Part shown: piece after piece, positions 25 through 56,793 of the stretch | How the letters are laid out: every line of letters begins with the position of its first letter | Position numbering within the stretch: position 1 is the first letter of the stretch | Source: Myxococcales bacterium | GTDB taxonomy: Bacteria > Myxococcota_A > Polyangia > Polyangiales > Polyangiaceae | DNA length: 56,793 nucleotides | Assembly (NCBI GenBank): GCA_947473045.1 | Contig: CANJCO010000032.1 | Span: 1 to 56,793 of the forward strand | Reading direction: 5' to 3' | The notes under the pieces: generated by a model | What the model saw: the letters and a program-made list of their open reading frames with translations, nothing else | The model's database searches: none | Told to the model about the DNA's origin: nothing | Position numbers and translations under genes: made by a program

Positions 25-42
25 CACCCTGCTAGCAGGGTG
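25..42. repeat. 18-bp perfect palindrome at edge of repeat copy A
   Basis: CACCCTGCTAGCAGGGTG is a perfect palindrome centred on CTAG. Its right half is the start of repeat copy A. Its left half (CACCCTG) resembles what the end of an inverted neighbouring copy would look like. Copies B and C have no such extension, so this may mark an adjoining copy or a junction at the contig edge. Confidence 0.6.
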
Positions 43-180
43 TTGAAAAACACCCTGATAGTAATTGGCGAAGCCCATTGCGTGGGGTGGGGACCCCGAA
101 AAACCGCGTTTTTCGGGGCGGGGAGGTGCATACCTCCCCGAGATGAAAGGCTAGCAGGCCGTTCTTCAACGGCCTGCTAG
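32..180 (+). repeat. Multi-hairpin dispersed repeat, copy A
   Basis: This is a ~149-bp element made of five consecutive hairpins. HP1 at 36-57 has a 9-bp stem and a GAAA tetraloop. HP2 at 63-79 is 7 bp with one mismatch at 76. HP3 at 94-118 is a perfect 11-bp stem with a CGC loop. HP4 at 119-140 is a 9-bp stem with a GCAT loop. HP5 at 150-181 is a 14-bp stem with a CTTC loop. Over 147 bp it differs from copy C at only two positions (76 and one near the 3' end). The two terminal hairpins share a CTAGCAGG-GTT / AAC-CCTG-TAG framework. Family membership was established only by comparing copies inside this window. A non-autonomous mobile element is the favoured reading; a structured RNA is the alternative. 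Confidence 0.9.
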
Positions 181-38221: not shown

Positions 38222-39376
38222 ATGACCGTCGTCGCGACCAAGCCCGAGCCTCCGAGCTTTACGCGCTTCGTCACGGTGGCGGCGACGATGGGCCTCCTCG
38301 GCTTTGGGGGAGGGTGGGTCGTGCTCGGGTGGATACGCCGCGCCTTCGTCGACGAGCGCCGATGGATCTCCGAGTCCGAGTTCATCGAGTACGCGTCCGT
38401 CGCCTCCGTGCTTCCGGGCACCACCGCGCCGAACCTGCTCACGCTCCTCGGCCATCGCCTCGGCGGGCCGCGGTGGGCCGCGGTCGCGCCTGCTGTCTTC
38501 GTGCTGCCCAGCGCAGTGCTCGTCGCCGCGATCGCTGCGTTTTACGATCAGCTGCGTGGCATGGACTTCGTGATGCGTCTGTTTGACGGCATGGGGGCGG
38601 CCGTCGCGGGCGTGATCGTGGCCGTCGCGATCTCGATGCGCCGGCGAGCCGTAACCACCCTGTTTTCAGGTGCGATCGCGCTCGTCGCGTTCGCGCTCGT
38701 GCTCGCGCGCATGGCGGGTCTGCTCGAAGTGTTCGTCGCTGCGGGCGTGCTCGGGGCGGCGACGATGCGCCCAAAAGGTGGGCCTCCGACCGGCGATGCG
38801 ACGGCCCTGTTCGCGCTGGCTCCCGCCGTCGCCGTGGTCGTGCCCGCGGCGACTGTGCTTGGCATCTTCTGGCTGTTCGCGCGCATCGGCTCGGCGACGT
38901 TCGGTGGCGGTTACTCGATGATCGCGGCCATGCACGATGACCTCGTCGGTCGAGGCTGGGTCGACGACAAGACCTTCAGCGATGCCATCGCCGTCGGACA
39001 GATCACCCCTGGCCCCGTCGCCCTCGCCGGGACGTTCATCGGCTACCGCGTTGGCGGGCTCGCTGGCGCGGTCGCGGCCACCGCGGGCATGTTTCTGCCG
39101 CCGCTCGCCATTACGCTCGCGGTCGCGCGCTCGCTCGCGAGCTTCCGCAGCAGCGCCGCGGTGAAAGGGGCGCTCGCAGGCGTCGGCGCCGCGGTCGTCG
39201 GCGTCATCGCGGCCTCTGCATGGTCGGTTGGGCAGGCGAGCGTGCACGACATGCCGGCGCTGGTCGTGGCGCTACTGGCCTGCGCGCTCATGGTGGCGCG
39301 TCCCAAACTAAGCCCGCTCTGGCCGTTGTTCGGCGGCGCGCTCGCGCTGTACGCCTACCGCAAACTCGCTCGGTGA
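38222..39376 (+). CDS. chrA: Chromate ion transporter family protein
   Basis: The product is 384 aa with two CHR domains, the long (bidomain) form. Repeat 1 has LLGFGGGWVVLGWIRRAFVDERRWISESEFIEYASVASVLPGTTAPNL. Repeat 2 has FGGGYSMIAAMHDDLVGRGWVDDKTFSDAIAVGQITPGPVA. The canonical FGGP of chromate-resistance ChrA is FGGG in both halves, and repeat 1 has LPGT rather than the usual LPGP. The physiological ion may therefore not be chromate. It ends 3 bp before repeat copy B. Confidence 0.88.
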   Translation: MTVVATKPEPPSFTRFVTVAATMGLLGFGGGWVVLGWIRRAFVDERRWISESEFIEYASVASVLPGTTAPNLLTLLGHRLGGPRWAAVAPAVFVLPSAVLVAAIAAFYDQLRGMDFVMRLFDGMGAAVAGVIVAVAISMRRRAVTTLFSGAIALVAFALVLARMAGLLEVFVAAGVLGAATMRPKGGPPTGDATALFALAPAVAVVVPAATVLGIFWLFARIGSATFGGGYSMIAAMHDDLVGRGWVDDKTFSDAIAVGQITPGPVALAGTFIGYRVGGLAGAVAATAGMFLPPLAITLAVARSLASFRSSAAVKGALAGVGAAVVGVIAASAWSVGQASVHDMPALVVALLACALMVARPKLSPLWPLFGGALALYAYRKLAR

Positions 39377-39379
39377 AGA

Positions 39380-39531
39380 CTAACAGGGCGCGCGAAGAAC
39401 ACCCTGCCAGGAATTGGCGAAGCCAATTGCGTGGGGTGGGGACCGGCGAGAAACCGCGTTTTTCGGGGCGGGGAGGTGCATCTCTCCCCGAGATGAAAGG
39501 CTGGCAGGCTGCTGCTTCAACGGCCTGCTAG
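39380..39531 (+). repeat. Multi-hairpin dispersed repeat, copy B (degenerate)
   Basis: A ~152-bp relative of copies A and C in the same orientation. The 3' arms of HP1 (AACACCCTG), HP3 (GTTTTTCGGGG) and HP5 (AACGGCCTGCTAG) are unchanged. The matching 5' arms carry substitutions and one-base insertions that break the stems, and HP4 has changes in its 3' arm (CTCTCCCC). HP2 is perfect. No compensatory changes were seen. It fills exactly the space between two convergent genes, starting 3 bp after the chrA stop and donating the TAG stop of the minus-strand metalloprotease-like gene. Confidence 0.88.
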
Positions 39532-40406
39532 CGCGCGAGCCCCGAAATCGGCGCACTTGCTCCGGCCGACAGCCGGGCGCAGCACTGGCCGTAGGGGCTC
39601 GTGCCTCCGCAGATGCATGCATCATGCATAAATGTCTTGCGAGGCGCCATGCGGCCGAAATCGCCTGCTGGCGGCCTCTTTTCGGTCCGTCCTTCGCGCC
39701 CGGCGGCCTCGCGCTCGCGAAGCGTCGCGACGACCGATGCGAGCGATCCCGGCTCGGCGAACCACGCGAGGGCTTGCTGCTCGATGGCTCGCGCGCGGGC
39801 GTAGTAGCGCTCGGTGTGGTGCTGGCGATCGAGGTGCGCGACAGGGCGAAACCCGCGCGGAACTGCGACCATAGCGTTGCCGCCTGTGAAGCCGTAGGTG
39901 CCGACGTCGCGCGCGGTCCGCAGGTTCCATTCGATGCCGAACAGGGCCTTCCCGACCAGCCACACGCCCGAAAAGGCCCGCGCCTCGGACTCGTTGAAGC
40001 GCGCCAGAAACGCGGCTTCGTCGGCGGGCGCGACGGCGTCCGGAACCCCGTAGGGAAGGCCCCAGGGAACGCCATAGTTTGGCGCGTCCTGCTCACCGAA
40101 GAAGGCATGCAGCAGCTCGTGCAGCAGGCTGCCAAGGAGCCGTTTGTACATGCACTCGCCGAAACGCACCGCGACCGTGCGGCAAGCTGGATCGCAGCGC
40201 TGCTGCGCGGCGCGAAACAGCGCGTCGCCTGAGCGCTCGTAGTTGGCTTCGTAGCCGAAGCCCCGCAGCGCGTCGTCACACGCGTACAGCGCGTGCACGC
40301 CGCGCGTCCGCTCTTCGGCGGACAGGAGCGCATGACAGCCGCACGCGCACGCTCGCTGCGCGCTCAGTGCCTCGACGAGCGTCTTCACAAGGGGTGAGTT
40401 TGACAC
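39528..40406 (-). CDS. HExxH metalloprotease-like protein with C-terminal SEC-C-like motif
   Basis: The product is 292 aa. LLGSLLHELLHAFFGEQD contains an HExxH zinc motif near residue ~97. The N-terminus has a Cys cluster (ACACGCHALL). The C-terminus has CICGGTSPYGQCC, matching the SEC-C zinc knuckle pattern CxCGSGxxYxxCC. No signal peptide was seen. The pair of zinc sites suggests a cytosolic zinc enzyme; a peptidase role is inference from HExxH alone. The stop codon TAG lies inside repeat copy B, so the original C-terminus may have been altered by the insertion. Confidence 0.75.
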   Translation of the reverse strand: MSNSPLVKTLVEALSAQRACACGCHALLSAEERTRGVHALYACDDALRGFGYEANYERSGDALFRAAQQRCDPACRTVAVRFGECMYKRLLGSLLHELLHAFFGEQDAPNYGVPWGLPYGVPDAVAPADEAAFLARFNESEARAFSGVWLVGKALFGIEWNLRTARDVGTYGFTGGNAMVAVPRGFRPVAHLDRQHHTERYYARARAIEQQALAWFAEPGSLASVVATLREREAAGREGRTEKRPPAGDFGRMAPRKTFMHDACICGGTSPYGQCCARLSAGASAPISGLAR

Positions 40407-55000: not shown

Positions 55001-55840
55001 ATGCTCGACTCCGTCATCGACTCCATCGTTGCAATCGCGCTCGCCGAAGACCTCTCCGCGGGCGACGTCACCACCGAGAGCTGCATCCCCGAGGGTGCGA
55101 TTTCAGTGGCACACGCCGTCGCGCGCAGGCCCATGGTGGCGTGCGGAGCGCGCGTCTTCGCCCGTGTATTTGCGCACATCGACGCGCAGCTTCGCGTGGA
55201 GCTTCGCGTCGCCGACGGCGCTCGCGTCGAAGCCGGCCAGCCGCTGTGGAGCGTGTCCGGATCGTCGCGCGCGATTCTCATGGGCGAGCGCACAGCCCTC
55301 AACTTGACGCAGCGGATGAGCGGCGTCGCCACGCTGACGCGCTCGTATCTCGACGCGGTTCCGCAAGGCTGCGCGACGCGCATCACCGACACGCGCAAGA
55401 CGACGCCGGGCCTGCGCGCGCTGGAGCGCTACGCCGTGAGAACGGGCGGCGGTCACAACCACCGGGACAACCTCGGCAGCGCGGTGCTCATCAAAGACAA
55501 CCACATCGTGGCCGCCGGCGGCATTCGCGAGGCGATCCGCGCGGCGCGGGCGTTCGCCCCGCACACCTGCCGCATCGAGTGCGAAGTCGACTCGCTCGCT
55601 CAGCTCACCGTCGCCCTTGATGCCGGCGCGGACATCGTGCTGCTCGACAACATGAGCACCGAGATGGTCCAGCAGGCAGTCGCGCTCACCCGCGGACGCG
55701 CCCTGCTCGAAGCGTCGGGCGGAATCACGCACGCGCGCATCGCCGAGCTCGCCCGCGCCGGCGTCGACGTGATCTCTTCGGGCGCGCTCACGCACTCCGC
55801 GCCCGCAGCGGACATAGGCCTCGATTTCGACGCCGCGTGA
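55001..55840 (+). CDS. nadC: Nicotinate-nucleotide pyrophosphorylase (quinolinate phosphoribosyltransferase)
   Basis: The product is 279 aa, the standard NadC length. It converts quinolinate and PRPP to nicotinate mononucleotide in de novo NAD synthesis. Diagnostic blocks are GDVTTESCIPEG, GERTALNLTQRMSGVAT, ITDTRKTTPGLRALERYAVRTGGGHNHRDNL, IKDNHI, IECEVDSLAQL, and DIVLLDNMS. The substrate-binding Arg/Lys residues are all visible. It overlaps birA by one or four bases, depending on the birA start, so the two are coupled. Confidence 0.97.
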   Translation: MLDSVIDSIVAIALAEDLSAGDVTTESCIPEGAISVAHAVARRPMVACGARVFARVFAHIDAQLRVELRVADGARVEAGQPLWSVSGSSRAILMGERTALNLTQRMSGVATLTRSYLDAVPQGCATRITDTRKTTPGLRALERYAVRTGGGHNHRDNLGSAVLIKDNHIVAAGGIREAIRAARAFAPHTCRIECEVDSLAQLTVALDAGADIVLLDNMSTEMVQQAVALTRGRALLEASGGITHARIAELARAGVDVISSGALTHSAPAADIGLDFDAA

Positions 55841-56649
55841 TGAACCGGATCGGTGACGATCTCAGGGGCGCGGCCGCCGCGATCGCGCGCACGGGCAGCG
55901 CGCTCGGGGCGCCGCTCGAGCTGCTTGCCGAGACGGCATCGACGAGCGATCTCGCCAAGCACGCCGCCAGGCTCGGCGCGCCACACGGCAGCACCTGGGT
56001 CGCCGAAGAGCAACACCATGGGCGGGGCAGGCAGGGGCGAACATGGTCGGCGGTGCGTGGCGAAAGTCTCCTCGTTAGCGTGATCGTGCGCGTGGTTTGC
56101 CCTGTCGCGCGGTTGCCCGAGCTCGCGCTCGCCGCTGGACTCGCCGTGGCGAGCGCGGTGCGCCTCCAGGCGCCCGAGGCCTCCGCGCGCGTGAAATGGC
56201 CAAACGACGTAGTCGCGGGGGGCAAGAAGATGGGCGGTATACTGGTCGAGTCGGTCGGCGTGACCGCGAACGCCGCGGCGCTGGTCGTCGGTGTCGGCTT
56301 GAACGTAAACACCCGCGTGTTTCCGCCCGACCTTGCGGATCGCGCAACTTCGGTCGCGCTGCTGTCGGGTCGGCCGTGCGATCGCGGGCAGCTCCTCGCG
56401 CTCATCCTCGCGGAGCTCGATCGCGATCTGTCCCTCGTCGCGGCGCGCGGTCTCTCCGCAATCGCCGCGCGCCTTTCGGCCGTCGACGCCCTTCGCGGAG
56501 CGCAGGTTTGCACCGACGACGGCACCGTCGGCATCGCTCGCGGCATTGACGCATCGGGGCGGCTTCGCGTCGAGCGGCCCGACGGCACCGTCGCCACCCT
56601 GGTCGCGGGCGAGGTGCACCTCGTGCCGCCGCCGCCGACGCCGCATTAG
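55840..56649 (+). CDS. birA: Biotin-[acetyl-CoA-carboxylase] ligase
   Basis: The product is 269 aa from the ATG at 55840 (a GTG one codon earlier overlaps more of nadC). It lacks the N-terminal DNA-binding HTH of E. coli BirA, so it is the monofunctional type. Motifs: STSDLAK, EEQHHGRGRQGRTW (biotinoyl-AMP loop), KWPNDVV, the catalytic-Lys region GGKKMGGILVE, and GVGLNVN. It attaches biotin to carboxyl-carrier proteins. The last residues are PPPPTPH, and the TAG stop belongs to repeat copy C, so the native C-terminus may have been cut or replaced by the repeat. Confidence 0.96.
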   Translation: MNRIGDDLRGAAAAIARTGSALGAPLELLAETASTSDLAKHAARLGAPHGSTWVAEEQHHGRGRQGRTWSAVRGESLLVSVIVRVVCPVARLPELALAAGLAVASAVRLQAPEASARVKWPNDVVAGGKKMGGILVESVGVTANAAALVVGVGLNVNTRVFPPDLADRATSVALLSGRPCDRGQLLALILAELDRDLSLVAARGLSAIAARLSAVDALRGAQVCTDDGTVGIARGIDASGRLRVERPDGTVATLVAGEVHLVPPPPTPH

Positions 56650-56793
56650 CAGGGTGTTGAAAAACACCCTGATAGTAATTGGCGAAGCCAATTGCGTGGG
56701 GTGGGGACCCCGAAAAACCGCGTTTTTCGGGGCGGGGAGGTGCATACCTCCCCGAGATGAAAGGCTAGCAGGCCGTTCTTCAACGGCCTGTTA
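56646..56793 (+). repeat. Multi-hairpin dispersed repeat, copy C (reaches the window end)
   Basis: All five hairpins are present: HP1 with its GAAA loop, HP2 perfect, HP3 perfect, HP4 perfect, and HP5 with one G-U where copy A has G-C. It differs from copy A at two of 147 aligned positions and is in the same orientation. Its first bases form the birA stop codon. The window ends within HP5, as expected for an assembly break in a multicopy repeat. Confidence 0.9.

Follow-up and report, generated by a model that had tools for sequence, protein, structure and literature searches.

Several kinds of short, high-copy mobile DNA have been described in bacteria. Bacterial MITEs, such as MITEAba12, the Correia-like elements and TIMEs, are short and non-coding, have ends that match those of a resident transposon, are flanked by a target duplication and are present in many copies. 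REPINs consist of an inverted pair of palindromes, measure about 100-200 bp and reach high copy number, with single palindromes occurring alongside them (Bertels and Rainey 2011, PMC3116915). Among insertion sequences, the IS5 family duplicates the target YTAR (PMC10359306), and its IS5_4 type (NF033581) carries CAGG..TTGAA inverted ends. All of these traits recur in the repeat analysed here, and an intact IS5_4-type element resides in the same genome. The window, that is, the whole stretch of DNA studied, comprises all 56,793 bp of contig C32 from a 5.15-Mb genome assembly in 138 contigs.

Results

Sequence reading and alignment confirmed the three copies of about 148 bp with five ordered hairpins announced in the preliminary description, the first spanning 32-181 in the alignment (Table 1). 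Its claim that both ends of the element are self-palindromic also holds, in the form of HP1 and HP5. The inverted ends read CAGG(G/C)(T/C)GTTGAA(A/G)AAC and are variants of one another (CAGGGTGTTGAAAAACAC and CAGGCCGTTGAAGAACGG), each extended into a palindrome and flanked by YTAG. Copies align in register, typically starting at YTA(G/A/T)-CAGG and finishing at CCTG-YTAG, and the flanks beyond are unrelated. The fold of the repeat is far better than that of shuffled sequences (z = -8.6 as RNA and -11.4 as DNA; 0/200 shuffles as good); in copy A, HP2 carries one-base damage and is absent from the predicted fold. Elsewhere in the window, a 12-bp unit (CCCTGCGCGATT) and its variants form an in-register array of about 8 units at 1627-1722.

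Table 1 Features of the repeat in the window, and of elements sharing its core in related genomes
Feature	Position or genomes	Strand	Remarks
Copy A (putative MITE)	32..180	+	body 36-176 (141 bp); CTAG flanks 32-35 and 177-180 form a matching 4-bp target duplication
HP1, copy A	36..57	+	left terminal palindrome, GAAA loop
HP2, copy A	63..79	+	variable hairpin, start of conserved core; 74% of cells paired; two-sided changes in 5/6 pairs
HP3, conserved core, copy A	94..118	+	94.5% paired; two-sided changes in 5/8 pairs
HP4, conserved core, copy A	119..140	+	99% paired; two-sided changes in 5/9 pairs
HP5, copy A	151..180	+	right terminal palindrome
Copy B (putative MITE)	39380..39531	+	older subfamily; flanks CTAA/CTAG
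Copy C (putative MITE)	56646..56793	+	cut by contig end; left flank TTAG, right flank TTA(end)
Core end type CAGG	own genome, G001, G005, G089, G107		
Core end type CTRAAT/CATTYAG	G095, G282		
Core end type CTAG-AGCACCGA	G280		
Core end type CTAG-AGCGACAA	G061, G023		
Core end type TGAAGG(T/G)CTGTC	G022, G055, G075		
Core end type TGAAGAGGTGACC	G037		
TGA-starting core elements	G022 L161, L162, L364-L380; G055 L381-L383; G037 L073, L156, L157, L340		exact start at the upstream gene's in-frame TGA stop in nearly all copies

Allowing ≤3 mismatches, the 5.15-Mb assembly contains the 33-nt HP4 region 152 times (reversed control, 0), so the repeat is not confined to the window, a point on which the preliminary description had called for a genome-wide count. 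A 156-bp query yielded about 190 candidates, and all 40 of the 40 scored were genuine copies. With its 141-bp body, its lack of coding capacity and these 152 occurrences, the repeat has the size and abundance of a MITE. Most contigs break at a repeat copy and both ends of the window stop inside one, indicating that the repeat is what broke the assembly. Because an assembly-breaking copy can show up at two contig ends, the real copy number is probably somewhat below 152, near 100 or more. The core is identical in 48 of the 64 sampled copies that contain it whole, which points to a recent burst; the older subfamily, of which copy B is an example, diverges by about 10%.

Single end palindromes and tandem copies are also present in the genome. 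Tandem or nested copies with extra single end palindromes, observed at L100:9972-10206, L063:1-282 and L098:7384-7553, suggest that the repeat's own YTAG ends are used as insertion targets. A 98% identical copy lies at L091 (G006:C52):1-119, in another genus that lacks the transposase described below, and reflects either a recent transfer or a misbinned contig.

To place the ends of the repeat, we ran the end query YTAGCAGGCTGYTGAAAAAC against 85k genomes and obtained at least 118 stretches; those among the matches listed came from Pseudomonas, Acidobacteria, Nitrospira, Desulfobacterota, Chloroflexi, Planctomycetes and others. Each stretch was paired with its inverted partner to delimit elements, which, among the matches listed, fell into two size classes of 68-272 bp (n = 56) and 1,283-1,352 bp (n = 5). 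Flanking 4-mers were identical in 30 of these 61 listed elements, against 20.1 by permutation (p = 0.00025). Four of the long elements encode a DDE transposase of about 350-380 aa, and two of these transposases belong to the IS5 family (NF033581 transpos_IS5_4, 251 and 243 bits, cut-off 140), the classified IS5 transposases containing DUF772 and DDE_Tnp_1 domains.

A profile of the four long-element transposases had exactly one match in the genome of the repeat, an intact gene of 366 aa (L312, contig C83), for which the NF033581 family call was made on two homologues. The surrounding IS is 1,339 bp long and reads CTAA-CAGGACGTTGAGAAAC ... TTTCAACACCCTG-CTAA, with a perfect CTAA/CTAA duplication. 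The terminal inverted repeats of this autonomous IS5 and of the repeat are shared: the resident ends CAGGGTGTTGAAA and CAGGACGTTGAGAAAC match the left and right ends of the repeat, respectively, CAGGGTGTTGAAA being the first 13 nt of HP1, and the reverse complement of HP5, CAGGCCGTTGAAGAAC, resembling CAGGACGTTGAGAAAC. Both also carry variants peculiar to this host, GGGTG at the left end and (C/A)CG at the right, in contrast to the GGCTG of ISs in other genomes, such as those in G087 and G094, where the flanks are CTAG/CTAG. Similarity between the repeat and the resident IS stops after about 13-16 bp. The transposase or a relative of it occurs in only 10 of the 98 genomes of the family, and most relatives with CAGG-ended elements now lack it. 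In other genera (G007 and G063; L074-L089), many CAGG end palindromes enclose different interiors (CTCCAGAAGAAAC or CCAATCAACAACCACCG) and probably represent distinct MITE families linked to this type of transposase.

Given a resident IS with the same end variants, and YTAR as the known IS5 target (PMC10359306), the repeat is very probably an IS5-family MITE (NCBIfam IS5_4 type), targeting YTAR and presumably mobilised in trans by the single resident IS5 transposase. The 4-bp YTAR duplication is clear across phyla and for the IS itself, and moderate for the genome's own copies: the first flank base agrees in 18 of 21 (12.9 expected, p = 0.011) and the whole 4-mer in 7 of 21 (3.7 expected, p = 0.04), so that flank identity is just moderately above chance, and older copies often differ. 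Some left flanks (CTAT) pair with an inner ATAG, and part of the flanking 4-mer may therefore be element sequence.

We then considered where copies sit relative to genes, using a codon-model gene caller for the genome's own stop counts. Of 93 scorable ends, 28 (about 30%) are precisely the stop of a gene that reads into the element, with the TAG or TAA of YTAR serving as that stop; as background, stops account for 22 of 111 CTAG/TTAG/CTAA sites in non-coding DNA, counting both strands. In the window, the gene that ends at 39376 has its stop 3 bp before copy B, whose right CTAG is the stop of the minus-strand gene 39528-40388, while the left TAG of copy C (56647-56649) is the stop codon of the gene 55837-56649. 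As the stop is in the flank, it must be the gene's native one. Truncation of genes by the element was rejected: at the fused stop, AHCY still ends in ...KPDHYRY, and PreA and GlgC have their whole C-termini. Convergent gaps hold 11 of 25 elements (44%), compared to 15% of intergenic bases. Among the matches listed from other phyla, with coding judged by open length alone, 36 of 113 ends of CAGGCTG-ended MITEs are exact stops, and one gene end only falls within 1-20 bp. A YTAR target combined with the loss of harmful insertions explains stop siting in this genome and in the CAGGCTG-ended MITEs without any special machinery.

Relatives of the repeat have HP2-HP4 in common, and not the ends (Table 1). 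Across 23 sequences from 11 genomes, 15 of the 23 core pairs show two-sided changes and 91% of cells pair, scores for pairing and covariation that none of 500 shuffles matched. A covariance model found the core in 23 of the 241 class genomes, including several other families, some of the weak hits being unverified. Loci from most of these 23 genomes were inspected, with weak hits in G240, G133 and G166 falling outside that set. By eye, the core loci of G283, G280, G102 and G107 look like true relatives and that of G241 is doubtful; a hit in G071 (L363) looks tRNA-like, is probably false and was excluded as a real element. A G-quadruplex reading of GGGGTGGGG..GGGGCGGGG was set aside, as compensatory changes support HP3 and HP4 and break the G-runs. 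Neither the element nor its core matched Rfam 15 (gathering score) or plasmid, phage and viral-contig sequences.

In G022, the core is enclosed by ends (TGAAGG(T/G)CTGTC...GACAGCTCTTGAG) unrelated to the CAGG ends. Here the in-frame TGA stop of the gene upstream marks the exact start of 18 of 19 copies, all oriented alike; of the non-coding CTGA sites in the flanks, just 2 of 11 are stops (nominal probability about 1e-12, with a small background and selection ignored). In G037, all four of the four copies, with TGAAGAGGTGACC ends, also start exactly at the upstream gene's TGA. The YTAR rule of IS5 does not explain the TGA siting in G022. Since the core is kept while the ends are exchanged, evolution appears to conserve a cargo structure rather than the ends that a transposase would recognise. 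We tentatively raise the possibility that HP2-HP4 is the conserved centre of a superfamily of miniature elements spanning the class, repeatedly refitted with different transposon ends and specialising in stop codons. If so, these elements would form a mobile family that seeks out stop codons, and the core would serve as a portable terminator or have a part in targeting.

These observations bear on whether the repeat might be primarily a host structure, such as a 3' UTR RNA or a bidirectional terminator, that is kept for its function, with mobility being secondary. Covariation of the core (two-sided changes at 15 pairs, unmatched in 500 shuffles), the location of copies at stop codons and in convergent gaps, and the retention of the core while ends change would all suit such a role. 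We nevertheless regard it as unlikely: 48 of 64 identical cores in unrelated flanks speak for a recent burst, the distribution is patchy (23/241 class genomes), and core-less MITEs with the same ends lie at stops equally often (36/113, among the matches listed). The structured-RNA alternative of the preliminary description, which had also proposed a covariance check, stands in part: the internal hairpins do covary and their structure is conserved, whether or not it acts as RNA.

The same description had favoured a non-autonomous mobile element recognised by an HUH (Y1/RAYT) transposase. Its first part agrees with the genome-wide copies in unrelated flanks, and its second part does not, there being no Y1 match in the genome and the ends being those of an IS5 DDE transposon. 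In its REPIN form, where a RAYT (Y1 HUH) moves a pair of inverted REP palindromes as single-stranded DNA, this alternative is very unlikely, even though the anatomy resembles it: HP1 and HP5 form an inverted palindrome doublet with a TAG-containing tetranucleotide outside each, and isolated single palindromes occur too. PF01797 (Y1/RAYT) has no match in this genome (E. coli was among the positive controls), nor in seven of nine core-bearing relatives, and a tblastn search of this genome with a Polyangia RAYT was empty; contigs under about 3 kb are missing from the assembly, and a RAYT enclosed by copies might be absent along with them. No RAYT/Y1 gene carrying the repeat's end hairpins was found in the genome or its relatives, whose RAYT-like genes are not flanked by the repeat's palindromes. 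Instead of a GTAG-type tetranucleotide without target duplication, the flanks are YTAG in direct repeat, and DDE insertion sequences with target duplications are bordered by the same ends as the repeat. In G007 and G022, chromosomal genes for RAYT-like proteins of about 280-303 aa (L133, L142) have no matching REP-like palindromes beside them, and the proteins are possibly domesticated.

Mobilisation by an IS701-type element, which also targets CTAG, can practically be discarded. The genome's one such element (DDE_5; L164:144-1536, ends CACTACTTTGACA) sits in the CTAG that closes a repeat copy and has a CTAG/CTAG duplication of its own. Its kind shares the target but has the wrong ends: nearly all of the examined IS701-type elements with resolvable ends start (C/T)ACTAC and none CAGG, the resident one reading CACTAC.

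Discussion

As a MITE of an already described transposon family, the repeat does not constitute a new class of mobile element. In the mechanism that we propose for this IS5-type MITE, the single intact 1.34-kb IS5 element, whose gene is intact and presumably expressed, would make the DDE transposase, which, judging by end identity, would recognise the CAGG(G/C)(T/C)GTTGAA ends of the MITE in trans. It would then excise or copy the MITE, insert it into YTAR and duplicate four bases, in keeping with the flank statistics. In a GC-rich, gene-dense genome, a YTAR outside coding sequence would often be a TAG or TAA stop codon and, since YTAR gives a stop on either strand, an insertion at such a site would harm neither of two convergent genes, so that surviving copies would lie at stop codons and in convergent gaps. 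These positions are what we see; the purging of other insertions would be their cause. The HP2-HP4 core may benefit the element, most likely, we conjecture, as a strong hairpin transcription terminator or insulator, which would make insertions after genes tolerable.

Overall, this analysis places a young MITE burst and its probable single parent transposase in one genome. It also illustrates how a preference for YTAR targets may turn into landing at stop codons, through which mobile DNA can multiply among densely packed genes while doing little harm. The core hairpins could in addition supply natural terminators for GC-rich bacteria.

Compared to an IS5_4 element, the repeat lacks a transposase gene, each of its ends continues into a perfect hairpin, and the sequence between them bears no relation to the IS. 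It differs from REPINs in that no RAYT was found, in its 4-bp target duplication and in the presence of matching ends on a DDE insertion sequence. Two features are unusual, namely a covarying core across different ends and, in one relative, exact stop siting beyond the IS5 rule. Relative to MITEAba12, the Correia-like elements and TIMEs, the repeat is set apart by its covarying hairpin core under several unrelated ends and by its frequent position exactly at stop codons.
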